Assembly: GCF_000379525.1 (NCBI RefSeq)
Contig: NZ_KB902498.1
Coordinates: 74,488-138,487, forward strand
Source of the DNA: Lamprocystis purpurea DSM 4197
Lineage (GTDB): Bacteria > Pseudomonadota > Gammaproteobacteria > Chromatiales > Chromatiaceae
Direction: 5' to 3'
DNA: 64,000 nt
Shown here: positions 46,587 to 62,039 of the stretch, piece by piece
Layout: every line of letters starts with the position of its first letter
Position numbering within the stretch: the stretch's first letter is position 1
Translations under genes and position numbers: made by a program
Notes under the pieces: model-generated
Told to the model about the DNA's origin: nothing
Databases searched by the model: none
The model's input: only the letters and a program-made list of their open reading frames with translations

Positions 46587-47387
46587 GTGAACGAAGACAA
46601 CAGGCAAAACAATAAACTGGAGCGCTTCGGGTTCAGTTGTCAGCGAGGCGGGGTCCATACCGCCCGGACGATGATGCTCGTCGAGCTGCGCGCCTTGCTG
46701 TCCTATGTGGACACGGCTGACGCGGCTAAGACCGATTACCTGGAGGCCATAGAGACCGCCAATTGCCTCGGCAAACGCTCGGGCAAGACGCGGGCGTTGA
46801 GCTTCCGGCACCTGGCCGGTCTCTACGCGCTCGAACCCGGCGTGTTGGTGTTTCGCGCCCTGCGGTTCTTCTGGCAGCGCGATGTCGATGGGCAGCCGCT
46901 GTTGGCAGCACTGTGCGCCTACTCGCGCGACCCCATTCTTCGGGCCACCGTCCCCTTTGTCCTGGGGTTCCAGGAAGGGGCCACCGTCAACCGTGAGGCG
47001 GTGGAAGCGTTCATCGATGCGCAAGAGCCGGGGCGCTTCAGCAAGGCTACGCTCAAGTCCACCGCGCAGAACATCAACGCGTCCTGGACCCAATCGGGTC
47101 ACCTGGCTGGCCGCGTCCGCAAGGTGCGGACCCGCGCCGTGGCGACGCCAGGTACGGTGTCGCTGGCGCTTCTTCTGGGCTACGTCAGCGGTCTGCGGGG
47201 CGAGTCGCTGTTCAAGAGCGACTACACCCGAATGCTGGACTGCTCCTTCGAAAAGACGATCGAGCTGGCTGAAGACGCCTCGCGCCGAGGCTGGATCTCG
47301 CTCAAGCGCGTCGGCCAGGTCGTCGAGGTGCTTTTTCCGAACCTGATCACCGCGCATGAAATGGAGTGGCTCCGTGAGCAGAATTAA
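46587..47387 (+). CDS. brxA: BREX protein BrxA (DUF1819)
   Basis: A 266-residue DUF1819 protein, the small helical DNA-binding first component of type I BREX. It shows FGFSCQRGGVHTARTMMLVE, LSFRHLAGLYALEPGVLVFR with the ALRFFW segment, FVLGFQEGATVNREAVEAFI and the central NINASWTQSGHLAGRVRKVR, all family-typical. The start overlaps nothing; brxB begins before its stop, so the two are coupled. BrxA was shown structurally to resemble NusB-like DNA binders; its role in phage exclusion remains accessory. Confidence 0.93.
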   Translation: MNEDNRQNNKLERFGFSCQRGGVHTARTMMLVELRALLSYVDTADAAKTDYLEAIETANCLGKRSGKTRALSFRHLAGLYALEPGVLVFRALRFFWQRDVDGQPLLAALCAYSRDPILRATVPFVLGFQEGATVNREAVEAFIDAQEPGRFSKATLKSTAQNINASWTQSGHLAGRVRKVRTRAVATPGTVSLALLLGYVSGLRGESLFKSDYTRMLDCSFEKTIELAEDASRRGWISLKRVGQVVEVLFPNLITAHEMEWLREQN

Positions 47388-47925
47388 ACGATTGACCCAG
47401 TCCTACAGCAAGTACGTGGCGGTGCCATGGCGTGATGACGCCGCCGCCGCTCAGCGCGTCATCTTCTGCGTCTACCATGAGACCGAAGAGCTGCGCCTGC
47501 GGGCCAAAGTCGACGAGTTCGAGATCGCCACCCGCGCGGCGGGCCATGACTGGGCCTTGTTCGACCTGACGGACTCTTTCCCGAACTGGTTGGCGTCCCA
47601 GCGGTACGCCAAGAGCTACTTCCAAAAGCCCAATTTGCTGTGCACGCTGCTGCCCAAGTACCTCGGCACCATCGAAGCCGCGTTCGAGACCTTCCTGCAG
47701 GACAAGAACGTCGGAGAAAACTGTGTCGTGGCGCTCCAAGGTGCGGGCACTCTGTTCGGCTTCCTGAAGGTCAAGGAAGTCGTGGATAAGCTCGCTCCCA
47801 AGGTGAAGGGTCGCCTGCTGGTGTTCTTCCCCGGCAGCTACGAGGATAACAACTACCGCTTGCTGGATGGGTACGACGGCTGGAACTACCTCGCCGTGCC
47901 GATCACCGCAGACAAAGAATTCTGA
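47374..47925 (+). CDS. brxB: BREX protein BrxB (DUF1788)
   Basis: A 183-residue DUF1788 protein. The GTG at 47374 is chosen because GGAG lies 8 bases before it and the family starts SRIKRLTQSY; it overlaps the end of brxA by 14 bases. Motifs: PWRDDAAAAQRVIFCVYHET, ALFDLTDSFPNWLA, ENCVVALQGAGTLFGFLKVK and VFFPGSYEDNNYRLLDGYDG. Function within BREX unknown but required in E. coli. Only 14 bases separate it from brxC. Confidence 0.94.
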   Translation: MSRIKRLTQSYSKYVAVPWRDDAAAAQRVIFCVYHETEELRLRAKVDEFEIATRAAGHDWALFDLTDSFPNWLASQRYAKSYFQKPNLLCTLLPKYLGTIEAAFETFLQDKNVGENCVVALQGAGTLFGFLKVKEVVDKLAPKVKGRLLVFFPGSYEDNNYRLLDGYDGWNYLAVPITADKEF

Positions 47926-47939
47926 AGAAGGGGAAGCAC

Positions 47940-50900
47940 TTGCTCAATCGCGACATCTACCAGAAGGACCCGTCGACCCGCAAGCTGGTCAACGAGGGTG
48001 TGGCCAGCGTCAACGACGAAAAAACCAACCAGGCGCTGTCCGTGCTGCGGTACGAGCTCGAAACCTTCGTCTGCGATGGCCAGTACGAAAAGGGTATGGA
48101 GCACATCCTTCACGTCTACCTGAAGAATATCGAGCAGGCCGAGCAGCCTGCCGCGTGGGTGAGTGGCTTCTACGGCTCGGGCAAGTCACACCTGGTCAAG
48201 ATGCTGCGGGCGCTCTGGGTGGATAGCGCATTCGACGACGGGGCCACCGCACGCGGTATCGCGAACGTGCCTCAAGGTGTGAGCGACCAGCTCAAGGAAC
48301 TCAGCACTCAGGCGAAGCGCCACGGCGGTCTGCACGCGGCGTCCGGCACGCTCGGCTCCAGTTCGCGCGACAAGTCCGTGCGCATGGCCCTGTTGGGCAT
48401 CCTCTTCAAGTCCGTGGGCCTGCCGGAGCAGTACCCGGTGGCACGCTTTGTCCTGTGGCTCCAGCATGATGGCATCTACGACGCGGTGCGGGGCCACGTT
48501 GAACAGAGCGGTTTCGACTGGAACGAAGAACTCGACAACTTCTACGTGGCCGAGGGGTTGCACGAGGCACTGGTCAAGGCCAAGCCCAACCTGTTCACGT
48601 CCCTAGCATCCTGCGTCGAGACTCTGAACAACCTTTACCCCTATGTTCAGGACGTCTCCAGCGGAGACATGCTCAAAGCCATTCGCCAGGTGCTGACCCG
48701 CGATGGCAAGTTCCCGCTCACCCTGGTGGTGCTGGACGAGGTGCAGCAGTACATCGGCGAGGACAGCCAGCGGTCCATCGATGTGCAGGAAGTGGTCGAA
48801 GCCTGCTGCAAGAGCATCGGCGCCAAGATGCTGTTCATCGGCACCGGCCAAACCGCTGTCACCGGCACCTCCAACCTCAAGAAGCTCGAAGGCCGCTTCA
48901 CTGTCCGCGTAGAGCTGTCCGACGCCGACGTCGATGCCGTGATCCGTCAGGTCATCCTGGCCAAGAAGCCCGCAGCCAAGGCTCCGGTCGAACAAGTGAT
49001 GCAGACCAACCTGGGCGAAATCTCGCGCCACCTGGCCGGCACCACCATCGGACACCGCGCCGACGACATCCCATTCTTTCCGCAGGACTACCCCATCCTG
49101 CCCGTGCGCCGCCGCTTCTGGGAGAACACCCTTCGCGTGTTGGACCAGACCGGCACCGACAGCCAATTGCGCAACCAGCTCTCGATGATCCACAAGGTCA
49201 TCCAGACCAACCTGAACGCGGCGGTCGGCTGCGTCGTGCCGGCGGACTACCTCTATTTCGATGCGGCCGACAAACTGCTCCAGTCGCGCATCCTGCCGCG
49301 CAAAGTCCATGAGAAGACCATGGTCTGGGCCAAGGGCGCCGACGACCAGCGCCTGATGGGCCGCGCCTGTGGTCTGGTGTTCCTGATCAGCAAGCTGGCG
49401 GGCAGCAACAACGAAATCGGCATTCGCGCCACGGTCGACACACTGGCCGATCTGTTGGTGGAAGATCTGACCCAAGGCTCCAGCGCACTGCGCAGCAAGC
49501 TCCCGAGTGTGCTCGACACGTGCGAGCTGCTGATGAAGGTGGGTGACGAGTACCGCATCCAGACCGAGGAAAGCGCCGCCTGGAACGACGAGTTCCTCAG
49601 TCAGCGCAACAACCTGGCCAACGAATCCCACCGGGTGGATGCGGAGCGCGACGATCGCATCCGCAAGAAATTCGGCGAGATGGTACGCAAGCTGTCGCTC
49701 ACCCAAGGCACGTCCAAGGTCACGCGCGACATCTTCCCGGTGTTCGATGCGCAGTTGCCGGGCGATGCCGGCGAGAAAGTCTGCGTCTGGGTGCGTGATG
49801 GCTGGAGCATCGACGAGAACTCGGTGCGTGCCGACGCGCGTCAGGCGGGCAATCAGTCGCCCACCGTGTTCGTGTTCATCCCCAAGCGCTCGGCCGATGA
49901 CCTGCGGCACTACCTGATCGACTTCAAAGCGGCCAGTGCAACATTAGATAAGCGCGGGGTCCCCGTGCCGGGCGATGGCACTGAGGCGCGTGCCGCGATG
50001 GAAACAATCAAGCAAACTGCTGAAGGCAAGATCCGCGAACTGCTGCAAGAAGCCTTCTCCGGCGCCCGTGTCTTCCAGGGCGGCGGGAACGAGATCCTGG
50101 GAGGCGACCTGCAGGAGATGACGCTGGAAGCCGCCGCCAACGCGCTGCACCGGCTCTACCCGCAATTTCACATCGCCGACCATGCCGCCTGGGCCAAGGT
50201 CTACGAGAAAGCGCAGAAAGGGGCGCCGGACGCTCTGAAGAGCGTGGGCGACGACGGCGAGCCCGCTAAGAACCCGGTCTGCAAAGCCATCCTGGCCTGC
50301 ATTGCCGGCGGCAAGAAGGGCATCGACATCCGCAAGCACTTCGAGGGCGCCACCTACGGCTGGTCGGGCGACGCGGTGGACGGTGGCTTGCAGGTGCTGC
50401 TGTTGGCCGGGCTGCTCCGTGCCCAGGATGAAAAGGGCCAAGTCATCGACCCGAAAGACCTGGAGCGCAAGTCCATCGGCAAGGTGATGTTCAAGGTGGA
50501 GTCCGCCATCGTCACCACCGCCCAACGCATCCAGATCCGCAAGTTGCTGCAGAAGGTCGGGATCTCGGCCAAGCAGGGCGAGGAGCTGGCCTCTGTGCCG
50601 CAGTTCTTGCAGGCCATGCTGGGGCTCGCCGATCAGGCCGGCGGTGAAGCACCGAAACCGGCGCGACCGGACACCCTGTCCATCGACGAGATCCGGCTGA
50701 CCGCCGGCAATGAGCAACTGCTTGCCCTCTACAACCGGCGCGATGCGCTTGGCCCCAGTATTGATCACTGGACCGACGCGTCCCAGCGCATCGCCACGCG
50801 CTGGCCGAGCTGGACCCTGCTGAAGCGTCTGATGGACCACGCCTCCGGGCTCCCGGACATCGAGGTCATCCTGGTCCAGGTGAACACCATCGCGCAGCAG

Positions 50901-51380
50901 CGCCAGCTTCTCGATGACCCGGACCTCATCGCGCCGCTGGTCGCCAACCTGACCCAACTGCTGCGCGATGCGCTCAACAGACTCGATGACGCCTATGCCG
51001 CCCGTCATGCGGAGGGCCTCGCACGCCTGGAAGCGGACACCAACTGGCAGCAACTGGAACCCGAGCAGCGTTACCCGCTCATGTCCGCACAGTCCCTGCA
51101 TGAAGCGGCTCGGCCTAAGGTGGCGGTGCAATCCACGAGCGATGTCCTGACCACCCTGGATACCTGCGCCCTGTCGATGTTCAGCGACCGCGTGGCCGCC
51201 ATGCCCGCCCGCTTCGAGCAGGTCGCGCAAGCGGCCGCCGAGCTTTGCGAACCCCAGGCGCAGTTCATTCAGGTGCCGCGCCGCACGCTCAAGACCGACG
51301 CGGAGATCGACGCCTGGCTCGATGAGGTGAAGCAACAACTCAAGGCCGCCCTCGCACAGGGGCCGGTCGTCATCCGCTAG
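47940..51380 (+). CDS. brxC: BREX ATPase BrxC
   Basis: A 1146-residue AAA-type ATPase, the large P-loop component of BREX (PglY/BrxC). It starts at TTG 47940 (LNRDIYQKDPSTRKLVNEGV, the family N-terminus) with GGGAAG upstream. Walker A is GFYGSGKSH at residues 76-84, Walker B LVVLDEVQQYI at about 262-272. The remaining 850 residues are mostly helical with the usual VRVELSDADVDAVIRQVIL-type segments. Full length compared with relatives of 1100-1200 residues. It would cooperate with PglX and PglZ in self-marking and phage replication block. Followed by a pseudogene, not directly by pglX. Confidence 0.94.
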   Translation: MLNRDIYQKDPSTRKLVNEGVASVNDEKTNQALSVLRYELETFVCDGQYEKGMEHILHVYLKNIEQAEQPAAWVSGFYGSGKSHLVKMLRALWVDSAFDDGATARGIANVPQGVSDQLKELSTQAKRHGGLHAASGTLGSSSRDKSVRMALLGILFKSVGLPEQYPVARFVLWLQHDGIYDAVRGHVEQSGFDWNEELDNFYVAEGLHEALVKAKPNLFTSLASCVETLNNLYPYVQDVSSGDMLKAIRQVLTRDGKFPLTLVVLDEVQQYIGEDSQRSIDVQEVVEACCKSIGAKMLFIGTGQTAVTGTSNLKKLEGRFTVRVELSDADVDAVIRQVILAKKPAAKAPVEQVMQTNLGEISRHLAGTTIGHRADDIPFFPQDYPILPVRRRFWENTLRVLDQTGTDSQLRNQLSMIHKVIQTNLNAAVGCVVPADYLYFDAADKLLQSRILPRKVHEKTMVWAKGADDQRLMGRACGLVFLISKLAGSNNEIGIRATVDTLADLLVEDLTQGSSALRSKLPSVLDTCELLMKVGDEYRIQTEESAAWNDEFLSQRNNLANESHRVDAERDDRIRKKFGEMVRKLSLTQGTSKVTRDIFPVFDAQLPGDAGEKVCVWVRDGWSIDENSVRADARQAGNQSPTVFVFIPKRSADDLRHYLIDFKAASATLDKRGVPVPGDGTEARAAMETIKQTAEGKIRELLQEAFSGARVFQGGGNEILGGDLQEMTLEAAANALHRLYPQFHIADHAAWAKVYEKAQKGAPDALKSVGDDGEPAKNPVCKAILACIAGGKKGIDIRKHFEGATYGWSGDAVDGGLQVLLLAGLLRAQDEKGQVIDPKDLERKSIGKVMFKVESAIVTTAQRIQIRKLLQKVGISAKQGEELASVPQFLQAMLGLADQAGGEAPKPARPDTLSIDEIRLTAGNEQLLALYNRRDALGPSIDHWTDASQRIATRWPSWTLLKRLMDHASGLPDIEVILVQVNTIAQQRQLLDDPDLIAPLVANLTQLLRDALNRLDDAYAARHAEGLARLEADTNWQQLEPEQRYPLMSAQSLHEAARPKVAVQSTSDVLTTLDTCALSMFSDRVAAMPARFEQVAQAAAELCEPQAQFIQVPRRTLKTDAEIDAWLDEVKQQLKAALAQGPVVIR

Positions 51381-51389
51381 GCCGACCGC

Positions 51390-51868
51390 ATGCGCACCGC
51401 AAGCCAGATTGCCGCGCTCTTGCCCGAGCTCGATGCGACCATCGCGGATGCACTCGAAGATCAGGAAAGTGCTCTCGCCCACCGCCATGGAGGTCTTGCG
51501 CACTCTGGCCAAGCAAGAGAACGCCCCGCGTGATCTTCTGCGCATGGGGGACCGACAACTCCTAAAAGCCTTGGGGATTCTACCCGCTGAACGAACCACC
51601 CGCGCCTTGGTCTTGCTGGTCGTTGACGAGGCCGCCATTCGCGCCCATGTCCAAAAGATTTTGATGAATGCCTTCTGCCATGCCGACTATCGCTTGCCGG
51701 GTCCAGTGATGGTGAAGCTGTTTCGGGATCGCATGGAGATCAGCAATCGAAGACACCGGCATGAGCCGCAGCGCGGCCAAGCGCCTGCTCGAAGCCCTGC
51801 GCGCGGACGGTCGGGTCACCCTGGTCGGCAAGGGTCGAGCGACCAGATGGGTCATCGTTGAAAACTAA
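51390..51868 (+). pseudogene. remnant of an AlbA_2/Schlafen-type gene between brxC and pglX
   Basis: Three pieces of one family are visible. (1) 51390 onward: TASQIAALLPELDATIADAL and EDQ, the N-terminus of an AlbA_2 ATP-binding protein, broken off before its E-(L/F)-K core. (2) From about 51630: DEAAIRAHVQKILMNAFCHA with DYRLPGPVMVKLFRDRMEIS, the HATPase_c_4 part. (3) From about 51747 in another frame: RSAAKRLLEALRADGRVTLV plus GKGRATRWVIVEN, stop at 51866, the terminal winged helix. The segments between are deleted. A complete relative lies two genes on (56162-57655), suggesting replacement or duplication of the accessory BREX gene. Confidence 0.7.
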
Positions 51869-51880
51869 CATAGCCCAAGA

Positions 51881-51948
51881 ATTGGCCCGCGGGCTATTCT
51901 TGGGCCAATAAAAAATATTATTGGCCCAGACGCCATCGATGGGCCAAT
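51881..51948. promoter_or_regulatory. tandem operator-like inverted repeats before pglX
   Basis: ATTGGCCC-N13-GGGCCAAT occurs twice: 51881-51909 and 51920-51948. Half-sites are identical while the two 13-base spacers differ, and the inner half-sites also form a perfect TGGGCCAATA-N8-TATTGGCCCA palindrome around an A/T-only centre. Conserved half-sites with free spacers indicate a dimeric DNA-binding protein. The site ends 26 bases before the pglX GTG, so it may control a separate transcript for pglX and the genes after it. Confidence 0.7.
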
Positions 51949-51974
51949 GCACGAACCAAAAACAGGACAGCGCA

Positions 51975-54900
51975 GTGAGACCCCTAGAGAAGAGCTTCCG
52001 CATCCACCTCGAACGCACCGTCAAGTCCGCCCGCGGCGTGGCCGAAGCCGCCGCCCGCGCGGCCTTGGAGCAGCTCGGCGTGGGCGAGGCCGCGCCCCCC
52101 GCCTACCTGGACGAACTCAGCCGCGCCCTGCGGCGTCGCTTGCGCGCCCACGGGCGTCAACTGGGCGATGCGCTGAACGGCGGCAAGGCGCAAACCATCG
52201 ACCACCTGGTGCAAGAAGTGGCCTACCAGCACTGGCACCGCATGCTGTTCGCCCGCTTCCTGGCCGACAACAACCTGCTGATGTACGACGGCGTGGCCGT
52301 CACTCTCCCAGAGTGCGATGAACTGGCGTCCGACGAAGGCGCCAAGAGCGGCTGGGAACTGGCGGGCACGCTGGCCGCGAGCATGCTGCCGCAAATTTTC
52401 CGCCCCGACTCTCCTGTGTACGAGCTAAGCCTGCCTCAGGAACATCAACATAAGCTGGAGACGCTGCTGGTTAATTTGCCCCCGGCCATTTTCTTGGCTT
52501 CAGACTCACTGGGGTGGGTTTACCAGTTCTGGCAGGCCGATACCAAAGACCAAATCAACAAGTCGGGAGTGAAGATCGGCGCGGATGAGCTGCCGTCCGT
52601 CACGCAACTGTTCACCGAGGATTACATGGTGGACTTCCTGTTGGACAACACGATGGGTGCATGGCACGCCGGCAAAGTCCTCGCCGCGAATCCCACGCTG
52701 GCCGAGAACGCCCAGAGCGAAGACGAACTTCGTCAGGCCGTCGCGTTGCCGGGCTGTCCGTGGAGCTATCTGCGGTTTGTAGCCAGACCATGTGTAGCCA
52801 GACCGTCCCGGTCTGGATCTGCGTTTTCAGAAGAACCAGACCGGGACGGTCTGGCTACGACCGGTCTGTCTACGACCGGTCTCGATCCTTCTTCGCTCGT
52901 GATCGCCTCCGGCGAAAATCTCCCGCATTGGACCTGCGATCAGGCCGTTTACCACGTCTCGTTCCGGCTCGCGGATTCCGTCCCGCAGGCCAAACGCGAA
53001 GAATGGATCGCCGAGCGCGAACGTTTGGCCGAGAACGCCAAACGGGCAAACCGCGAGCTGACTGCCGAAGAGGAGGACAGAATCCGGTTCCTTTACTCGG
53101 AGCGAATCGAGAAGTTCCTCGATACAGGCCACGGCGACTGCCTCATGAACCATCCGCCGATCGCCGAACTTGTGGCCGGCGCCTTGCGCCACTTCGACGG
53201 TCAGCGCTACTCCCTCCACGCGTGGTGCGTCATGCCCAACCACGTTCACGTGATCGTGGAACCGCTCCCGGGTCATGACCTCTCCAACATCATCCACTCG
53301 TGGAAATCCTTCACCGCCCATGAGATCAACAAGCGGCTCCAACGTCGCGGCGATGTCTGGCAACACGATGCTTACAACCACATCATCCGTTCGGAAAAGG
53401 AATACCGCTTTCAAATCGCCTACGTCTGGGAAAATCCCGACAAGGCCGGGCTGACCGATTGGGTAGCCAGAGCGGTCGTAGCCAGACCGTCTGTAGCCAG
53501 ACCGTCCCGGTCTGGGGAAGTAACCAGACCGTCCCGGTCTGAGGAATTAACCAGAGCGTCTCGCTCTGATTCGGAAGAAGAAAACCAGACCGGGACGGTC
53601 TGGCTACCCGCCTGCACCTTCGACGGCTGGCCGAAGACGGCGAAGGAACTCAAATGCCTCGACCCCTGCATGGGCAGCGGCCATTTCGTGGTAGCCATGT
53701 TCGAGCGGCTGGTCGCCTTGCGCCTGGCGGAAGAAAACCTCGACGAGGCCTCCGCCGTGGCGACCGTCATCCGCGACAACCTGTTCGGCCTGGAGATCGA
53801 CCCGCGCTGCACCCAGCTCGCCGCCTTCAACCTGGCGCTGGCCGCCTGGCGGCGCGTGGGCCACTGCAAGCTACCGGCGATGAACCTGGCCTGCTCCGGT
53901 CTCGCGCCGAACACCCGCGAAGCCGACTGGCTGGCGATGGCCGGCGACGACGAGCAGCTCAGGAACGGCATGGAACGGCTTTACCGGTTGTTCCAAAAGG
54001 CGGCGATGCTGGGCAGTCTCATCAATCCGCGCGCCAGCGAGGGCGATTTGCTGGAGGCCGGATTCCATGAACTCCAGCCGCTGCTGGAAAAGGCGCTGGC
54101 GCAGGAGGCCGCGGACGACACCGCGTATGAAATGGCTGTGACTGCGCGGGGAGTGGCTAAGGCGGCGGAGATTCTCGCCGGACAGTTCACGCTCGTCGCT
54201 ACCAATGTGCCTTACCTTGTTAGTGGAAAGCAAAGCGATTCCCTTAAAGATTTCCTCGTGGCGCATTTCTATTCGGGCCGTTCTGACTTAGCCACGGCGT
54301 TTGTTCTACGAACCGTCCAATTTTGTAGCAAAGGTGGAACTGCCGCACTTGTTACCCCGCAGAATTGGCTGTTCCTCGGTTCTCATCGCAATCTTCGCGA
54401 GGAGCTACTTGCCAAAGCAAAGTGGGAAGCCGTCGTGCGACTCGGTGCAGGGGCTTTCGAGACCATCACGGGTGAGGTGGTCAATGTTGGGCTCGTTTCT
54501 TTTTCGGAAACACTTCCCAGCAAGAGCAGTTCGTTTCTTGGAGTCGATGTCACCGGGCAGGACTCGGTAGCCGGAAAAGAACTGGCACTGCGATCAGATC
54601 CAATCGCCCACTTCGCACAATTGGCACAACTTGAAAACCCGGACGCACGCGTTCTATTCGAGGAAGCCGGGAAGCTTAAACTGCTTTCGGATTATGTAGT
54701 TTGCCATCAAGGGCTGGCTACTGGCGATCTACCTCGGTCCGGCGCACGGTTTTGGGAGATACCGCGATTCGACCCTGCTTGGATTCCGTGGCAAGGAACT
54801 GTCGACAGCACGTGCGATCACGGCGGACGCTCTGGCGCGCTGTTATGGGAAGGCGGGTTCGGCCAACTCCACGCTTTCAATGAGGCACACAAAGCAGTCC

Positions 54901-56165
54901 GCAAGAACACGCATCTTCGTGGTGTGCATGTTGTTGGGAAATCGGCGGTTGTCATCGCACAGATGGGAAGGCTTCCGGCGACTCTCTACAGCGGGGAGCG
55001 CTATGACGACAATATGACGGTCTTGATGCCTAACGACTCCGCGATTTTGCCCGCCATTTGGGCGTATTGTTCCTCCAAGGAATATGGGAAGGTGGTTCGA
55101 CAACGCGATCAATCGCTGAAAGTCCCAGCAAACACCCTCGCGAAAGTGCCCTTCGATCTGGCTCACTGGCAGACGGTGGCGGCGGAGAAATATCCGCACG
55201 GCTTGCCGAAGCCGTTTTCCAGTGATCCGACGCAATGGCTGTTCGACGGGAATGTAGCCAGAGCGTCCCGCTCTGGGTCCGACAACGATCCAGACCGGGA
55301 CGGTCTGGCTACTCTCCAAGTGGCCGTGGCGCGCTTGCTCGGCTACCAGTGGCCGCGCCAGACCGGCTCCAGTTTTCCCGATTGCCCGGCGCTCGGCCCG
55401 GATGGGCTGGAACGCCATGCCGACCAGGACGGCATCGTCTGTATTCCGCCGGTAGGCCGTGAAGCATCCGCCAGCGATCGCCTGTTGAACCTGCTGGCCG
55501 CCGCTTATGGCGAGGCCTGGATCAACGAGACCCTGTCGCAATTGCTGGCGGGGGCTGATCACGCCGGCAAATCGCTGGAGACCTGGCTGCGTGACAAGTT
55601 CTTCATTCAGCACTGCAAGTTATTCCACAACCGACCCTTTATCTGGCACATTTGGGATGGTCTGCGCGATGGTTTTTCCACTCTGATCAATTACCACAAG
55701 CTGGACTATAAGGCGCTCGAATCCCTGATCTACACCTATCTGGGTGACTGGATCAGCCGTCAGAAGCAGGACATCGCAAGCCATGTCGACGGCGCCCAGG
55801 AGCGCCTGGCTGCGGCCGAGGCCCTCAAGAAAAAGCTGGAGCTGATCCTCGCCGGCGAAGCGCCCTACGACATTTTCGTGCGCTGGAAACCGCTGGAACA
55901 GCACCCCCTCGGCTGGCACCCCGACCTGAACGACGGGGTACGGATGAACATTCGCCCCTTCCTCACGGTGCCGGACGTAGGCAAGCGCGGCGCCGGCGTG
56001 TTGCGCGACAAGCCGAACATCAAGTGGGAGAAGGACCGTGGCAGCGATGTGCCCTCGGCCCCCTGGTACGAACTTGGCCTGCACTACGGAGGCAAGGCCG
56101 GCGACCGCATCAATGACCATCATCTGACGCTGGCCGAGAAGCGCGCCGCACGGGATGTGCCATGA
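51975..56165 (+). CDS. pglX: BREX adenine-specific DNA methyltransferase PglX carrying an in-frame RAYT transposase
   Basis: Open for 1396 residues. The GTG at 51975 has AGGA 7 bases upstream and gives the family N-terminus (RPLEKSFRIHLERTV). Residues 1-268 are the PglX N-terminal domain (QEVAYQHWHRMLFARFLADN, SVTQLFTEDYMVDFLLDNTM, PWSYLRF). Residues 269-544 are foreign: a REP-flanked RAYT. From FDGWPKTAKELK the methyltransferase resumes with motif I DPCMGSGHF at 563-571 and a motif IV-position NVPY at 744-747, then target-recognition and C-terminal regions (RPFLTVPDVGKRGAGVL). Another REP pair is translated at about 1094-1113. PglX methylates host DNA at an asymmetric adenine site. Whether this fusion is active is unknown. 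It overlaps the next gene by ATGA. Confidence 0.88.
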   Translation: MRPLEKSFRIHLERTVKSARGVAEAAARAALEQLGVGEAAPPAYLDELSRALRRRLRAHGRQLGDALNGGKAQTIDHLVQEVAYQHWHRMLFARFLADNNLLMYDGVAVTLPECDELASDEGAKSGWELAGTLAASMLPQIFRPDSPVYELSLPQEHQHKLETLLVNLPPAIFLASDSLGWVYQFWQADTKDQINKSGVKIGADELPSVTQLFTEDYMVDFLLDNTMGAWHAGKVLAANPTLAENAQSEDELRQAVALPGCPWSYLRFVARPCVARPSRSGSAFSEEPDRDGLATTGLSTTGLDPSSLVIASGENLPHWTCDQAVYHVSFRLADSVPQAKREEWIAERERLAENAKRANRELTAEEEDRIRFLYSERIEKFLDTGHGDCLMNHPPIAELVAGALRHFDGQRYSLHAWCVMPNHVHVIVEPLPGHDLSNIIHSWKSFTAHEINKRLQRRGDVWQHDAYNHIIRSEKEYRFQIAYVWENPDKAGLTDWVARAVVARPSVARPSRSGEVTRPSRSEELTRASRSDSEEENQTGTVWLPACTFDGWPKTAKELKCLDPCMGSGHFVVAMFERLVALRLAEENLDEASAVATVIRDNLFGLEIDPRCTQLAAFNLALAAWRRVGHCKLPAMNLACSGLAPNTREADWLAMAGDDEQLRNGMERLYRLFQKAAMLGSLINPRASEGDLLEAGFHELQPLLEKALAQEAADDTAYEMAVTARGVAKAAEILAGQFTLVATNVPYLVSGKQSDSLKDFLVAHFYSGRSDLATAFVLRTVQFCSKGGTAALVTPQNWLFLGSHRNLREELLAKAKWEAVVRLGAGAFETITGEVVNVGLVSFSETLPSKSSSFLGVDVTGQDSVAGKELALRSDPIAHFAQLAQLENPDARVLFEEAGKLKLLSDYVVCHQGLATGDLPRSGARFWEIPRFDPAWIPWQGTVDSTCDHGGRSGALLWEGGFGQLHAFNEAHKAVRKNTHLRGVHVVGKSAVVIAQMGRLPATLYSGERYDDNMTVLMPNDSAILPAIWAYCSSKEYGKVVRQRDQSLKVPANTLAKVPFDLAHWQTVAAEKYPHGLPKPFSSDPTQWLFDGNVARASRSGSDNDPDRDGLATLQVAVARLLGYQWPRQTGSSFPDCPALGPDGLERHADQDGIVCIPPVGREASASDRLLNLLAAAYGEAWINETLSQLLAGADHAGKSLETWLRDKFFIQHCKLFHNRPFIWHIWDGLRDGFSTLINYHKLDYKALESLIYTYLGDWISRQKQDIASHVDGAQERLAAAEALKKKLELILAGEAPYDIFVRWKPLEQHPLGWHPDLNDGVRMNIRPFLTVPDVGKRGAGVLRDKPNIKWEKDRGSDVPSAPWYELGLHYGGKAGDRINDHHLTLAEKRAARDVP
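52779..53606 (+). mobile_element. REP-associated tyrosine transposase (RAYT) element with flanking REPs, inserted inside pglX
   Basis: The element begins GTAGCCAGACC and ends GGTCTGGCTAC, spans exactly 828 bases and so preserves the frame. REP units of the type CAGACCGTCCCGGTCTGG occur as an inverted pair at 52790-52850 and as five or six units at 53463-53606. Between them an uninterrupted RAYT of the IS200/Y1 superfamily reads YHVSFRLADSVPQ, FLDTGHGDCLMNHPPIAELV, GQRYSLHAWCVMPNHVHVIV (HUH motif, residues 423-425 of the fusion) and VWQHDAYNHIIR (catalytic Tyr 467), then YVWENPDKAGL. HUH and Tyr are intact. It has no strong start of its own; an in-frame GTG at 52899 is the only candidate. Confidence 0.92.
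55254..55312. repeat. REP pair of the RAYT type within pglX coding sequence
   Basis: GTAGCCAGAGCGTCCCGCTC TGG, a 16-base link, and CCAGACCGGGACGGTCTGGC TAC form an inverted REP pair with the same ends as the RAYT element 1.6 kb upstream. It is translated as ARASRSGSDNDPDRDGLAT in the C-terminal part of PglX, in a position that looks like a surface loop. Confidence 0.85.
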
Positions 56166-57655
56166 AGAAGCAGGATCTCCTGGAGCTGATTGCCAACGGT
56201 GAAAACTCCGGGGTCGAGTTCAAGCTGGATACGGTTCGCCCGGAACAGCTTGCCAAAGAGGTCGTGGCGCTGGCCAATCTCAAGGGTGGCTATATCCTGC
56301 TGGGGGTGGCCGACGACAAGACCATTGCCGGAATCACCCGGGAGAACCTGAGCGAGTGGTTGGCCGATACGGTTTTGGCTCGCTATGTTCATCCGGTGAT
56401 CTTGCCGTATTACGAGGAAGTGCTTCTGGATGACGGCAAAGTGGTGGCCATCATCACGATCGGGCAGGAGGTCTCGAAACCCTATGTCGTCCGCGCCAAT
56501 GATCGGGAAACGGCCTACGTCCGCATTGGTTCCATTTCTCGCCAGGCAACCCGGGAACAACTGTTGATGCTGGGCTCCGCCAGCGGATTCATCCACGCGG
56601 AGATCATGCCGGTGCAGCGGACGCACTTCGACGCCCTCGACCGATCGCGCCTGGAAAATTATCTCAGAGAGATCCTCAAGGATCCGGATGTCCCCGAAAC
56701 CCGGGATGAATGGATTGCGCGTTTGAAGGCACTGGGGTTGATGACCGAAGGCCCTGCCGGGGCGTCTGTCTGCACGATTGCCGGTCTGGTCCTGTTTGGT
56801 ATCCGCCCCCGACAGGTCCTGAAACAATCCGGGCTGCGCCTGATGTTCTTCAATGCGCTGGACAAGATCTATCAGGCGCAATTGGACAAGGTCTTGGATG
56901 CCCCTCTGGTCGGCCGATTTCAGGTTGGACAAGCAGGCAGGAGTCTGATCGATGCCGGATTGATCGAGAAGGCGCTGGAATCGATGGAACCCTTCGTGAC
57001 GCGGGAGTCCGACACCATCGACGCACATTTCCGTCGGGACAAACAGTGGTTGTATCCCTTCGAGGCGCTGCGGGAGCTGTTGATCAACGCGCTGGCGCAT
57101 CGTGACTGGACCCGTTTTGGTGATGTGGAGATTGTGGGTTACTCGGATCGTCTCGAGATCACCAGCCCCGGATCCTTGCCCAATGCCATGACGGTCGAAA
57201 AGATGCTGGCCGGGCAGCGTTCCGCCCGCAATCCCATCGTCGTGGAGGTGCTTCGGGATTACGGCTATGTCGATGCACGCGGAATGGGGGTCCGCGCCAA
57301 GGTGGTGCCGGCCCTCAAGGCGAGTGGGGCGAGCTGGCAGGTGGAGGCCACCGAGGATTTCGTGAAGACGACCGTCGGGAAAGCCACTGTAGGTGCCGTT
57401 GTGACCGGTGAGCGGCCAGGATCGGTGTCAGAACCTGTGGTGGAGCGTCGGGAAAGCGTCGGGAAAGCGTCGGGAAAGATTCTGCAACTTTGTCGTGAAA
57501 GGCCCGCTGTGACCATCCCGGAGTTGGCTGAGTTGATTGGGATTACCGAGCGATCCGTGCAACGAAACATCCAGAAACTGCAACAGGACGGATGGCTGCG
57601 ACGCGTCGGGGGGAGAAAGACTGGCTACTGGGAGGTGACGCATGAGGGTGCTTGA
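56162..57655 (+). CDS. AlbA_2/Schlafen-type ATP-binding regulator-like protein within BREX
   Basis: A 497-residue protein of the AlbA_2 - HATPase_c_4 - winged helix architecture (RecG-like/Schlafen group). N-terminal NGENSGVEFKLDTVRPEQLA and LANLKGGYILLGVADD are the AlbA_2 core; residues about 300-345 (ALRELLINALAHRDWTRFGD, then DRLEITSPGSLPN) are the GHKL-like part; residues about 435-497 form a winged HTH (TIPELAELIGITERSVQRNI). Genes of this type recur inside BREX operons as accessories without an assigned mechanism. It overlaps pglX by 4 bases and pglZ by 14 bases, so it is fully embedded in the operon. Near 57450-57475 GGGAAAGCGTC is repeated in tandem. Confidence 0.85.
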   Translation: MKKQDLLELIANGENSGVEFKLDTVRPEQLAKEVVALANLKGGYILLGVADDKTIAGITRENLSEWLADTVLARYVHPVILPYYEEVLLDDGKVVAIITIGQEVSKPYVVRANDRETAYVRIGSISRQATREQLLMLGSASGFIHAEIMPVQRTHFDALDRSRLENYLREILKDPDVPETRDEWIARLKALGLMTEGPAGASVCTIAGLVLFGIRPRQVLKQSGLRLMFFNALDKIYQAQLDKVLDAPLVGRFQVGQAGRSLIDAGLIEKALESMEPFVTRESDTIDAHFRRDKQWLYPFEALRELLINALAHRDWTRFGDVEIVGYSDRLEITSPGSLPNAMTVEKMLAGQRSARNPIVVEVLRDYGYVDARGMGVRAKVVPALKASGASWQVEATEDFVKTTVGKATVGAVVTGERPGSVSEPVVERRESVGKASGKILQLCRERPAVTIPELAELIGITERSVQRNIQKLQQDGWLRRVGGRKTGYWEVTHEGA

Positions 57656-59987
57656 TCATTTACTGGAAACCGTCCGTGGTGCAGCCGTATTCAACCCAGA
57701 GGTCCAGGTCGCACCCGCGTGCATCTTGTGGCCCGATAAAGACCGCCAGTGGGAGGCGGTGATTCCGCGCCTGCAAAGTGAGCTGGGCGAACTGCTGGTA
57801 CTGGGCGACTACGCACCTGAGAAGCGCGTCGGGCCAGCCATTTGGCTGCGTTGCGTAATCGCCGGCAAGGCGCCGGAGGTCACCCCGGCGGACGACCGGG
57901 TGCCGGTGTTCTACTTGCCTGGAGTCAGCCGCCAGGACTTGCGGGCGATCGAAGACTGTCCGGACCTGCTGAAGCCCCTGGCTGAATTGCAGTACCGGGG
58001 CCTGATCTGGTCGCAGGCGAACGCGAAAGACTGGACCATCATGGCCTTCCTGAAGTCGGACCAAGGCGGCCTGGGCCTCGATGTCGCCCAGGACAACGAA
58101 GCCAAGAACGCCATGCAACTGGCGCTGTACCGTCTGCTGGATGAAGACCTTGAGCTGTTGAAGGGCAAGCGGCTGGACAGGGACTATTTCAACACCCTGC
58201 TGACCGGCGGCGACCCGGTGCGCGACCTGCTGCAGTGGCTGGATTTGGGCGACGCGTTTCAAACCACGCGCGGCGCCAACGAGTGGAAGGCCTTTGTGGA
58301 GGTCTGCAAGTCACAACTGGCGTTCAATCCGCAGGCCGATGGCGTCCTGGCAGGTGCCGCCAAGTTGGCCATGCATGAGGGGCCTTGGCATTCGGTGTGG
58401 GAGCGGTACCGCGAATCACCCAAGCGCTACCCGAACATCCCGAGTCGAATCCGCCAGTGCAAGCCGCCCGATCTGGGCCTCTTCGACATCCCTGCGGAAA
58501 AGCTCAGCGGTTGGCCGCAATGGAACGAGGAGCAGGAGAACTCGCTCCGGTATGCTTTGCTGGCTTTGAACCACCTGCCTGCGCATGACGCCAGGACGCG
58601 GGTGTTGGAGCTTGAGAAATCCCATGCGCCTCGCCGGGAGATGGTCTGGGCGGAGTTGGGCGACTCGCCACTGGTACAGGCCGCCAGGCACCTGGCGGTG
58701 GTGGCGGAGGTGACCAGGACGGCGCTCGCGGCTGGCTCGGTTGCGGACTTGCAGGCGGGGTACGCCACCCATGGCTGGCGCGCCGACGATGCGGTGCTTT
58801 CGGCGCTGGCGTGCGTTAACAAGGCGGCCGACGTTGATGCGGTGACGGCAGCCATTCGGGCGATCTATCTGCCCTGGCTGGAAGCGTCCGCGCGCTACCT
58901 GCAAGAACTGCTGGAGGGTGCGGTCTACCCTGGCGGACGGATCGCTGAAGCCCCCGCCTTCTATAAGGTCGACAGGCAATGCGTGCTGTTTGTGGATGGC
59001 CTGCGCTTCGATGCGGCTCGCCGACTCTCGGCCAGTCTGGAGGCGCGCGGTTGGCAGGTGGCGGAAACCATGGGCTGGACGGCGTTGCCCAGCGTCACCG
59101 CAACCGGCAAGGCGGCCGCGTCACCGGTGCGGACCAAGATCAGCGGCACCGATGACTGTGATGACTTTGAACCTTGTGTCGCCGCCACGGGCCAGTCGCT
59201 CAAGGGCGGTTACCACCTGAAGAAACTGCTGAACGACAACCACTGGAAGGTGCTGGACCGCACCGAGAACGGTGACGGCCAGGGCAACGCGTGGTGCGAA
59301 TTTGGCGACATCGATAGCGAGGGACATACGCGCGGCTGGAAGCTGGCCAAGCACATCGACCCGCTTCTCGCAGAAATTGCAGAGCGCATCGCCGCCTTGT
59401 TGGCCGCGGGCTGGAACAGCGTTAGGGTGGTGACCGACCACGGCTGGCTACTCATGCCGGGCAGGTTACCCACAATTCAGATGTCGAACGACCTCACCGA
59501 CAACAAATGGGGGCGTTGCGCCTCGATCAAGTCGGGCGCTTCCACCAGTGAGCGTTTGTACCCCTGGTTCTGGAACCCGAATCAGCAGTTCGCGCTGGCC
59601 GACGGGGTGAGTTGCTACGGCAAATCGGTGGACTACAACCATGGCGGCTTGAGCCTTCAGGAATGCCTCGTCTTGGATCTGGTGGTGACCCGCGGCGGGA
59701 GCACATCCGGCCAGCAGGTGGCCGAGGTGACTGACATTGCCTGGAAGGGCTTGCGCTGCACGGTTGGGGTGGACGGCCAGTACGCCAATCTGTGTCTGGA
59801 CATTCGCACGCAAGCGGGTGACCCGGCGTCCAGCGTGGTCGTGAGCGTGAAGCCGCTCAAGGGCAACGGCACCGCATCGGTGGTTGTCGAGAACGAAGAA
59901 CTGCAAGGTCGCGCGGCGTTCCTGGTCCTGCTCAGCGCATCGGGCGAGCTGGTGGCGGAGGCAAACATCGTGATCGGTGGAGGATGA
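57642..59987 (+). CDS. pglZ: BREX phosphatase-like protein PglZ (type B)
   Basis: A 781-residue PglZ. The N-terminus VRGAAVFNPEVQVAPACILW with PDKDRQWEAVIPRLQ is characteristic of the type B branch of BREX-1 PglZ. The alkaline phosphatase-like core lies in the second half: CVLFVDGLRFDAARRL (metal-binding Asp) and VVTDHGWLLMPGRLPT (Asp-His). The C-terminal 120 residues are a beta domain (LSLQECLVLDLVVTRGG). PglZ is essential for BREX methylation and exclusion; the related isolated domain has nuclease activity in one tested case. Starts inside the preceding gene by 14 bases and is followed after 3 bases by brxL. Confidence 0.93.
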   Translation: MRVLDHLLETVRGAAVFNPEVQVAPACILWPDKDRQWEAVIPRLQSELGELLVLGDYAPEKRVGPAIWLRCVIAGKAPEVTPADDRVPVFYLPGVSRQDLRAIEDCPDLLKPLAELQYRGLIWSQANAKDWTIMAFLKSDQGGLGLDVAQDNEAKNAMQLALYRLLDEDLELLKGKRLDRDYFNTLLTGGDPVRDLLQWLDLGDAFQTTRGANEWKAFVEVCKSQLAFNPQADGVLAGAAKLAMHEGPWHSVWERYRESPKRYPNIPSRIRQCKPPDLGLFDIPAEKLSGWPQWNEEQENSLRYALLALNHLPAHDARTRVLELEKSHAPRREMVWAELGDSPLVQAARHLAVVAEVTRTALAAGSVADLQAGYATHGWRADDAVLSALACVNKAADVDAVTAAIRAIYLPWLEASARYLQELLEGAVYPGGRIAEAPAFYKVDRQCVLFVDGLRFDAARRLSASLEARGWQVAETMGWTALPSVTATGKAAASPVRTKISGTDDCDDFEPCVAATGQSLKGGYHLKKLLNDNHWKVLDRTENGDGQGNAWCEFGDIDSEGHTRGWKLAKHIDPLLAEIAERIAALLAAGWNSVRVVTDHGWLLMPGRLPTIQMSNDLTDNKWGRCASIKSGASTSERLYPWFWNPNQQFALADGVSCYGKSVDYNHGGLSLQECLVLDLVVTRGGSTSGQQVAEVTDIAWKGLRCTVGVDGQYANLCLDIRTQAGDPASSVVVSVKPLKGNGTASVVVENEELQGRAAFLVLLSASGELVAEANIVIGGG

Positions 59988-59990
59988 TGA

Positions 59991-62039
59991 ATGATTGAAC
60001 TGGATCAGATAGACAAAACAGCCGCCTCGGTACTGGACGGATATCTGGTCCGGAAAGACTTGGTCCGTACCTTCAGCCGGCAATTTCCGGTCCCCACCTA
60101 CGTGGTGGAGTTCATGCTCGGGCGCTATTGTGCCAGCACCGATCAGGAGGAGATCGACGAAGGGCTCGAGATCGTCCAGCGCCAGTTGAAGTCCCGCACG
60201 GTGCGCGCCGGCGAGGAAGAGTTGTTCAAGGCCAGGGCGCTGGAAACGGGCGAGGTGAAGATCATCGATCTTGTCACGGCGCGCGTGGATAACAAAGGCG
60301 AGTACGTCGCCAGTCTGCCGAGTCTGCGCCTGACGGATGTGCGCATCAGCAGCGAACTGGTCAACCAACATGAACGCATGTTGACCGGCGGCTTCTATGC
60401 CGAGTTGGGGGTGACGTTCGATGTGGCTATCGCCCAGGAAAGTCGGGGTCGCCCCTTCGGGATCACCTCGTTGCGGGAAATTCAGCTATCCAAGCGGGAT
60501 GTCCTGGACACGCTGGCCAAGGCGCGCCGAGCGTTCTCGACCGAAGACTGGAAAGGCTTTCTGCTGCGGTCCATCGGCATCGAGCCGGGCGGGTTGAGCC
60601 ATCGGCAGAAGAACGCCCTCCTGCTGCGGATGGTGCCGTTCGTGGAGCGCAATTATAACCTGGTTGAGCTCGGGCCGCGCGGGACCGGTAAGAGCCACTT
60701 ATTCCAGCAGGTTTCCCCCTACGCTCATCTGGTCTCGGGTGGCAAGGCCACGGTCGCAAAGATGTTCGTTGAGAACACCGCCAAGGGGCGGCGGGGGCTG
60801 GTCTGTCAGTTCGACGTGGTCTGCTTCGACGAGGTGTCCGGCATTTCCTTCGACCAAAAGGATGGCGTGAACATCATGAAGGGCTACATGGAATCGGGCG
60901 AGTTCAGCCGGGGCAAGGAGAGCATTCGCGCCGACGGCAGCATCGTCATGCTGGGCAACTTCGATGTCGATGTCGAACACCAACAGCGTATCGGACATTT
61001 GTTCGGTCCGATGCCGCCCGAGATGCGTAACGACACCGCCTTCATGGATCGCATCCATGCTTTCTTGCCCGGCTGGGATGTGCCCAAGATCAACCAAGAC
61101 CTGGTGACGGACCATTTCGGCCTGGTCAGCGATTTCCTCTCCGAATGCTGGGGCCAGCTGCGCACCCAAAGCCGAGTGAGCGAATTGCAGGGTCGCGTCT
61201 ATTATGGCGGGGCGCTGTCGGGTCGGGATACCAATGCGGTGAGCAAGACGGTCAGCGGCCTTTTGAAGTTGCTCTATCCGAGTGCCGATGACCCGGTGCC
61301 GGACGAGGATCTGGAATGGGCCGTGCGCATCGCCATGGAAGTGCGCCGCCGGGTAAAGGAGCAACAAAAACGCGTGGGTGCGGCGGAGTTCCGTAATACC
61401 CATTTCAGCTACATCCTGGGCGAGGATGGTGTCGAAAAATTCGTTTCCACGCCCGAGTTACAGAGCGAAAACAGCGTCGGAGGCGATCCGCTGGAGCCAG
61501 GCCAGGTCTGGACGATCAGCCCCGGGGGCGGAGAGGAAAACTCCGGACTGTATCGGATCGAGGTCAACGAAGGTCCCGGCTCAGGGGTGAAGGTGCTCAA
61601 TAAGCCCATCCCTCCGGCCTTCCGCGAGAGCATCGGATTCGCCGAGCAGAATCTCTACGCCAGATCGCAGCAAATGGTCGGAGACAAGGACCCCAGGCAC
61701 CACGAATTCACAGTACAGTTGCGGGCCTTCGATGCAGCGAAGTCCGGTGCGAAACTCGGCGTTGCCGCACTGGTCGCCCTCTGCACGTCACTGCTGAAGC
61801 GGAGCGTTCGCGGCGGCCTGATCATCCTCGGCGAGATCAACCTGGGGGGCTCCATCGAGCCTGTGCACAACGCGGTTTCGATTGCCGAGATCGCTGTCGA
61901 AAAAGGGGCGACATCCCTGTTGATGCCCGTGTCTTGCCGGCGCCAGTTGGTCGATTTGTCTGATGATATGGCAACCAAGATCGACATCCAATTCTACTCT
62001 GATGCCAGAGACGCGCTCATTAAAGCCATGGCCGAGTGA
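59991..62039 (+). CDS. brxL: BREX Lon-like protein BrxL
   Basis: A 682-residue Lon-like AAA protein, the type I BREX signature component. Walker A is GPRGTGKSH at residues 228-236; Walker B CFDEVSGISF follows at about 280. The C-terminal domain (GVAALVALCTSLLKRSVRGG, EINLGGSIEPVHNAVSIAEI) resembles the Lon protease domain. BrxL from other species assembles into DNA-binding multimers resembling MCM helicase and is needed for phage exclusion but not for methylation. The ATG at 59991 is 3 bases after pglZ. Last gene of the operon; 62 bases later ends ssrA on the other strand. Confidence 0.94.
   Translation: MIELDQIDKTAASVLDGYLVRKDLVRTFSRQFPVPTYVVEFMLGRYCASTDQEEIDEGLEIVQRQLKSRTVRAGEEELFKARALETGEVKIIDLVTARVDNKGEYVASLPSLRLTDVRISSELVNQHERMLTGGFYAELGVTFDVAIAQESRGRPFGITSLREIQLSKRDVLDTLAKARRAFSTEDWKGFLLRSIGIEPGGLSHRQKNALLLRMVPFVERNYNLVELGPRGTGKSHLFQQVSPYAHLVSGGKATVAKMFVENTAKGRRGLVCQFDVVCFDEVSGISFDQKDGVNIMKGYMESGEFSRGKESIRADGSIVMLGNFDVDVEHQQRIGHLFGPMPPEMRNDTAFMDRIHAFLPGWDVPKINQDLVTDHFGLVSDFLSECWGQLRTQSRVSELQGRVYYGGALSGRDTNAVSKTVSGLLKLLYPSADDPVPDEDLEWAVRIAMEVRRRVKEQQKRVGAAEFRNTHFSYILGEDGVEKFVSTPELQSENSVGGDPLEPGQVWTISPGGGEENSGLYRIEVNEGPGSGVKVLNKPIPPAFRESIGFAEQNLYARSQQMVGDKDPRHHEFTVQLRAFDAAKSGAKLGVAALVALCTSLLKRSVRGGLIILGEINLGGSIEPVHNAVSIAEIAVEKGATSLLMPVSCRRQLVDLSDDMATKIDIQFYSDARDALIKAMAE

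Follow-up and report, generated by a model that had tools for sequence, protein, structure and literature searches.

A REP-bounded RAYT gene lies in frame in the linker of a BREX PglX methyltransferase, and related genes lie inside other host genes

Inteins and homing endonuclease elements are mobile coding elements that reside in frame in conserved genes at recurrent sites. REP-associated tyrosine transposases (RAYTs, TnpA_REP) are mostly single-copy and domesticated, and no evidence of tnpAREP mobility is reported, in work on RAYTs and REPtrons (PMC6006769, PMC8266576). Repetitive extragenic palindromes (REPs) are described as mostly intergenic (PMC3733652). Here we describe a RAYT gene between REPs that lies in frame inside pglX, the methyltransferase gene of a bacteriophage exclusion (BREX) operon, in a 64,000-nucleotide stretch of Lamprocystis purpurea DSM 4197 (NZ_KB902498.1, positions 74,488 to 138,487, forward strand), hereafter the window.

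The element has in common with the RAYTs and REPtrons of those papers (PMC6006769, PMC8266576) a Y1 HUH domain with HUH and Y motifs, GT[AG]G hairpins on both sides and the 4er8 fold, but differs in lying inside a host gene and in the host frame. Like the intragenic GTAG/CGTC REPs and Rickettsia palindromic elements, as described in PMC3733652, it is palindromic DNA translated in a host protein. Those inserts are often in DNA synthesis or repair genes, plausibly in linkers or loops, and encode about 20 to 82 aa, whereas the window's insert is a whole transposase gene.

Like inteins and homing elements, it is a putatively mobile in-frame coding element at recurrent sites, but it is without a splicing domain, an intron or co-converted flanks common to carriers. 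The host gene resembles BREX PglX/BrxX (8c45, 9ewz) in its N-terminal domain, its methyltransferase core and the order brxA-B-C-pglX-pglZ-brxL, and has two additions, a linker RAYT element of about 276 codons and a loop encoded by REPs. Among the titles and abstract openings listed by searches of the open-licence PubMed Central literature we found no account of RAYTs inside host genes, and that literature gave no paper with both BREX and a REP-associated tyrosine transposase.

One open frame on the plus strand, which begins at 51921 with the first TTG or at 51975 with a GTG and closes with the stop at 56163-56165, encodes 1414 or 1396 aa. It was named pglX (51975-56165) from the list of open reading frames (ORFs), Pfam and PADLOC. 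Its order is PglX N-terminal domain, REP-bounded RAYT and PglX methyltransferase, in agreement with a preliminary description of the sequence, which had an uninterrupted RAYT in a continuous frame of 1396 residues. Residues are counted here from 51978, which gives the numbers of that description minus 1.

The N-terminal domain spans residues 1-267 (51978-52778, +) by alignment with uninterrupted PglX, and its model has a predicted local confidence (pLDDT) mostly above 75. The methyltransferase and C-terminal part (53608-56162, +; Pfam, PADLOC) holds motif I, DPCMGSGHF, at 53661-53687 (residue 562, the former 563) and NVPY from 54204. Y1_Tnp (PF01797, 3e-8) matches residues 410-463, upstream of the Pfam domains Eco57I and N6_Mtase. 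The best PADLOC model for the protein is PglX, in two stretches with 1586 bits; this family score and the BREX operon found around the gene by PADLOC place it among the BREX PglX proteins.

The insert is a REP-bounded RAYT element of 829 bases, GTAG to CTAC, at 52779-53607 (+), with the palindromic ends GTAGCC...GGCTAC. Its REP bounds and its start had been recognized before, but with 828 bases and an end at 53606. The left REP cluster (52779-52858, +), from a palindrome search, has a REP at 52794-52816 and an inverted one at 52836-52858. The right cluster (53463-53607, +) has REPs at 53493-53515, 53520-53542 and 53547-53569 and an inverted one at 53585-53607. This terminal REP contains the TGG codon (53601-53603, +) for the linker W, common in uninterrupted linkers, so the earlier remark that the REP end encodes this W holds. 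Another in-frame REP pair of pglX, absent from that description, lies at 55254-55312 (+) in a variable loop (DPTQWLFDG ... LQVAVA). The REP palindromes have 8 matches in the window with at most 3 mismatches, against 0.02 expected.

The RAYT domain (TnpA_REP, Y1_Tnp) lies at 52881-53460 (+), by PF01797 and by sequence and fold matches to 4er8. The RAYT alignment puts the HUH motif, HVH, at residues 422-424 (53241-53249, +), the same residues as the former 423-425. The catalytic Tyr is that of the Y-motif YVWENP at residue 482 (53421-53423, +), a Tyr in 65/65 aligned RAYTs; it would be 483 in the former numbering, 16 residues away from the Tyr 467 named then. Modelled alone, the RAYT has a pLDDT of 77 and a predicted TM-score (pTM) of 0.70, and the nearest solved structure is 4er8, a RAYT bound to a REP hairpin (E 1.7e-6, TM 0.48/0.56).

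The protein segment is identified as a RAYT by its Y1_Tnp domain with HUH and a single catalytic Tyr, by GT[AG]G-tagged REP hairpins in inverted pairs on both flanks and by a TnpA_REP fold with 4er8 as the best match of a modest model. It is not a stand-alone gene, a trait that is usual and not defining, and the genome of the window does not have REPs dispersed across it.

The gene frame of the insert has 0 stops, compared with 3-12 in each of the other five frames, and 5/5000 first-order Markov copies were fully open. Were the RAYT translated apart from an internal start, with PglX in two pieces, the single in-frame GTG (52899) just before the conserved RAYT core could serve; the frame without any stop and the lack of an in-frame ATG in 52779-52960 make this very improbable. 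The Pfam matches of the protein include no Hint splicing domain of an intein (to E 0.001), and Rfam gave no self-splicing intron or IStron RNA in 51000-57000 (to E 1). RNA elements were rejected, the only Rfam matches being four weak ones, all below the gathering score and three of them on palindromes.

We consider it likely that the insert is a coding REPtron, open end to end in the host frame, in the linker between the PglX N-terminal domain and the methyltransferase core. This reading is carried by the continuous frame, the complete set of RAYT catalytic residues, the recurrence at this linker in PglX genes without close kinship to one another and in other host genes, and purifying selection in one pair. 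The RAYT would then be made as part of PglX, giving two enzymes side by side, and PglX would remain active because the insert is in a linker. The RAYT domain may keep nicking REP hairpins on single-stranded DNA. A model of residues 1-1085 (pLDDT 75, pTM 0.44) has PglX/BrxX (8c45, 9ewz) as best matches in the PDB.

The same architecture recurs. The preliminary description had proposed an insertion in the linker before motif I that makes a methyltransferase-RAYT fusion and had suggested a database search for it; such searches added 11 PglX, spread over several phyla, that have an in-frame RAYT in this linker. With a RAYT-free N-terminal domain as bait, the best 80 of 532 relatives were kept, corresponding to 79 loci from genome contigs. 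Seven of the 79 have a RAYT in the linker: L076, L083, L084 and L108 (Desulfobacterota by record), L088 (Verrucomicrobia), L113 (Lentisphaerae) and L081 (an unplaced bacterium). In the other 72 none was found, at least one of them (L110) ending before the linker. Four more carriers, G001, G005, G007 and G030, are among genus or family relatives of the window.

The uninterrupted linker is mostly about 12 aa, such as VQQEDGTWTPAA, and ends in W-x-P-A. Among 70 parsed linkers, which are those of PglX ORFs with linker and motif I recognized by the search pattern, 47 are at most 18 aa, 16 are 19-60 aa and 7 have a RAYT. A palindrome matched by at most 7/200 control stretches is present in 5 of the 16 mid-length linkers, and the other 11 are unremarkable. 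Since palindromes are also in RAYT-free linkers, the PglX linker seems to be a general landing place for palindromic DNA. The second PglX loop, which has the REP pair at 55254-55312 in the window, holds in G007 a repeat like G007's own.

Other repeats were seen in PglX linkers. In-frame palindromic ones of the kinds SPLAGEGQGEG and PPLKKGGGGG are in L062, L066, L093 and L119. In L117 (Thiohalocapsa sp. ML1) the linker is full of tandem SPPGRGAGGEG-type repeats, after which the frame of the N-part ends and the C-part is in another frame.

REP repeats can confuse assembly, and two other pglX pieces from the genus, those of L042 and L048, end in REPs at contig ends. However, an assembly or binning artefact, raised earlier as a chimera that would overturn the fusion, is exceedingly improbable. 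The same architecture is in many independent assemblies, and its presence in those of G007 (Candidatus Thiodictyon syntrophicum) in 3 contigs and of G030 in 1 contig argues against a chimera. The genome of the window is a 6.9 Mb assembly of 211 contigs and belongs to the genus of G007, whose second contig has a stretch of 6000 bases with 100% identity to a plasmid of Candidatus Thiodictyon syntrophicum, a Chromatiaceae member. Its second pglX is seemingly broken at two contig ends (L041 at the start of G000:C29, L042 at the start of G000:C167); the breaks fall within a different type of REP, again in the linker, where a second insert may be concealed.

A dead insertion, with PglX inactivated, a decaying BREX locus and a frame that is open recently or by luck, is unlikely but has some cases to point to. 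The PglX of G030 (L040, G030:C1:1226423) is an 893-aa frame in which the RAYT passes straight to the C-part and the methyltransferase core is missing, as a deletion between two REPs would give. In the window's own genome, L043:6781-8160 (G000:C195) has a RAYT between a BrxC-like scrap (48% over 33 aa) and a downstream scrap of the PglX C-terminal part, perhaps a decayed BREX locus. In the window, by contrast, BrxA, BrxB, BrxC, PglX, PglZ and BrxL all match their families, motif I is present and NVPY is as in most other PglX. Between the carriers G001 and G005 (L038/L039), dN/dS is 0.12 for the N-terminal part, 0.15 for the RAYT and 0.20 for the C-terminal part, thus 0.12-0.20 on either side of the insert, and carriers exist in several phyla.

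The preliminary description also offered a nascent domestication, in which the defence enzyme acquires a domain that nicks DNA. The RAYT would then be a working part of BREX through which PglX recognizes REPs or hairpins, or nicks DNA. The intact catalytic residues, a RAYT as conserved as the PglX N-terminal domain in the G001/G005 pair and the clustering of PglX-resident RAYTs favour it. We nevertheless regard it as quite improbable, for in 72 of 79 related loci no RAYT was found, the carriers are scattered over the PglX trees, separate RAYT branches occupy the site and the same RAYT family is found in housekeeping enzymes. In LeuS, MetH and PriA a defence role makes no sense.

On the tree of PglX N-terminal domains (103 rows), 12 carriers need 12 changes, of which at least 5 are forced (shuffled mean 11.6); the 11 carriers of the methyltransferase tree (95 rows) need 9, of which at least 8 are forced. 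The N-terminal domains of L081, a carrier, and L063, without RAYT, are 94% identical. For the 12 PglX residents the RAYT tree (65 rows) implies 5 label changes, either gains or losses, against a shuffled mean of 11.2, with 0/500 shuffles as low and at least 3 forced by well-supported branches. L060, a duplicate of L050, was left out of the PglX trees and the flank comparison. A RAYT clade exclusive to PglX was suggested by a first tree of 25 rows, mostly fetched via PglX, and was ruled out once Verrucomicrobiota rows were added and stand-alone and glycyl-radical residents fell inside it.

Homing with co-conversion was rejected for now, as near the insert the carriers are no more similar to the window than the non-carriers; L048, whose contig ends in a linker REP, was treated as a carrier in this comparison only. 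The peaks of similarity to the window (residues 201-268 and about the first 200 after the insert) are found also in the uninterrupted L107, L103 and L052, and in L045 after the insert, so pglX is mosaic.

RAYTs of this family are inside many other genes. With the window's RAYT as query, 52/387 Verrucomicrobiota genomes had matches at E 1e-40 or better. They give at least 65 matches, a lower bound with up to 8 candidates scored per genome, and 38 of the 65 are in frames of 560 aa or more, at odds with the former view that RAYTs are normally stand-alone. Two of the 38 are PglX and the other 36 ORFs were fetched (L207-L242); 35 were scanned with NCBIfam, and L214 was named by Pfam.

The hosts are LeuS (3), PriA (3), MetH (2), IspG (2), a RarA-type AAA protein (2), HsdR (2), B12 radical SAM proteins (4) and type IIG-like enzymes (5, with L235 and L238 called by eye from their likeness to L215 and L237). 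One each are ValS, XseA, HypF, CarB, NspC, MvaD, adenosine deaminase, MmeI, a glycyl-radical enzyme, an FAD oxidoreductase, NUDIX and aspartate ammonia-lyase, the last with the RAYT at its C-end. One ORF (L241) has no host family match, and the N-side of L218 has no NCBIfam match.

In 20 of the 35 scanned ORFs a single host family gives at least two matching stretches, with the same or a sister family across the RAYT; 15 of them were tested apart, and L210, L224, L226, L230 and L240 come from the initial scans. The profiles are split as in XseA (1-187, then 189-389) and NspC (2-114, then 114-380). By eye, the insertion site is common to orthologues in LeuS, PriA, MetH, IspG and the HsdR of L053 and L231. 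HUH and Tyr are intact in 49/49 host-labelled rows, the 2 HUH exceptions among the 65 rows both being outside that set. Such retention would not be expected from folding constraint alone.

A search of 297 Desulfobacterota genomes gave 9 matches, 6 of them in defence-type genes: HmaB/DUF1156 methylases (3), PglX (1), type IIG (1) and a DrmD-like helicase (1). Of the other three, L261 resembles the DUF1156 group by visual comparison only, L255 is stand-alone and one has a stop. The Desulfobacterota RAYTs are 73-80% identical, compared with 73-83% for their N-terminal domains (five pairs, synonymous sites mostly saturated). Among 321 evenly sampled Gammaproteobacteria, the genome of the window was the only one with a match at E 1e-25; other Chromatiaceae outside that sample have them too. 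The in-frame RAYTs in housekeeping and defence genes (L207-L242, L256-L261), with orthologues frequently sharing the site, are a larger finding than pglX.

Two HsdR proteins, from G030 (Chromatiaceae) and G357 (Verrucomicrobiota), have 83% identity along 725 aa and 64% along the 227 N-terminal residues; the RAYTs that they hold at one site are 72% identical. By this likeness the HsdR gene and its RAYT passenger probably crossed phyla together. Viruses and plasmids were rejected as vehicles: the ORFs of 12 viral PglX loci contain no RAYT, and a query with the RAYT found no phage, a single weak viral locus and 3 plasmid records below 60%.

The REPs accompany the RAYTs. A GT[AG]G 7-5-7 hairpin is in 34/60 RAYT flanks compared with 51/934 control stretches; a few flanks are from stand-alone RAYTs, and L043, L044, L054 and L056 were left out. 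The stems vary between hosts with pairing kept. Seven stem pairings were the selection criterion, and the closing pair 12-16, which was not used for picking, is paired in 25/26 as GC, AU or UA.

All REP matches in the window's genome (7/7) are in the pglX with the RAYT, which fits arrival by horizontal transfer. In G102, the host of L081, 9/9 REPs are on the pglX contig within 9.1 kb. The Verrucomicrobiota carrier G105 has 50 over 34 contigs, G755, with the closest RAYT as a stand-alone gene, has 9 on 3 contigs, and in G005 there are 11, the majority being of a related type and at other places in the genome. In 11 of the 20 genomes searched there were no REPs of the type sought. The distribution would fit elements that are at home in REP-rich genomes and are exported within BREX.

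We tentatively suggest that a widespread branch of RAYTs has an intein-like life without splicing, in which the transposase-REP unit, open in one frame, would enter recurrent linkers as a translated domain, remain catalytically active and have horizontally transferred defence genes as vehicles between phyla. Its recurrent sites could perhaps be those upstream of motif I in PglX and type IIG enzymes and those in LeuS, PriA, MetH, IspG and HsdR. Under the coding REPtron reading, the RAYT-REP unit could itself transpose, the copies that persist in genes would be those inserted into permissive linkers with the frame kept, and defence genes that are mobile (PglX, HsdR, HmaB, type IIG) may carry it between phyla.

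Several observations weigh against the coding REPtron reading. Frames shorter than 560 aa hold 27/65 Verrucomicrobiota matches, 26/60 flanks are without a REP of the form sought, and the closest RAYT overall, L255 at 70%, is stand-alone. The PglX trees are quick ones with weak forks, 39/99 (N) and 40/90 (methyltransferase) inner branches being open; with the mosaic pglX, part of the scatter may be due to noise or recombination. With all hosts labelled, the RAYT tree has 31 changes against a shuffled mean of 45.5; RAYTs from the same host gene are often grouped, and common descent or co-transfer, not fresh insertion, accounts for part of the pattern.

To these are added that dN/dS is from one pair, other pairs being mostly saturated, that the named carriers are mostly metagenome-assembled genomes and that the relative domain placement in the fusion model is not reliable at its pTM of 0.44. 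The core loss in G030 means that the insert is not always harmless. The fusion product, the methylation and the transposition are predicted here from sequence.

The intein-like life, if true, would be evidence that RAYTs move, contrary to the view of immobile domesticated genes. Recurrent in-frame units in essential and defence genes would make RAYT mobility directly testable, explain the crossing of phyla and add a class of protein-embedded mobile elements. They would also caution annotators against dismissing every long RAYT protein as an annotation error. The natural fusions of a single-stranded DNA hairpin nuclease with DNA methyltransferases would also be on offer.

The operon around pglX is all on the plus strand. 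Upstream are BrxA (46587-47384; PADLOC), BrxB (47356-47922; Pfam, PADLOC) and BrxC (47940-51377; PADLOC). A Schlafen/AlbA_2 domain protein with a winged helix (56162-57652; Pfam) is between pglX and PglZ (57642-59984; PADLOC), followed by BrxL (59991-62036; Pfam, PADLOC). A small ORF lies between brxC and pglX at 51409-51861. Within pglX, the GC content at third codon positions in the target-recognition region (54207-55253) is 0.56, compared with 0.85 before it and 0.79 further on, a pattern as after a swap of the target-recognition domain.
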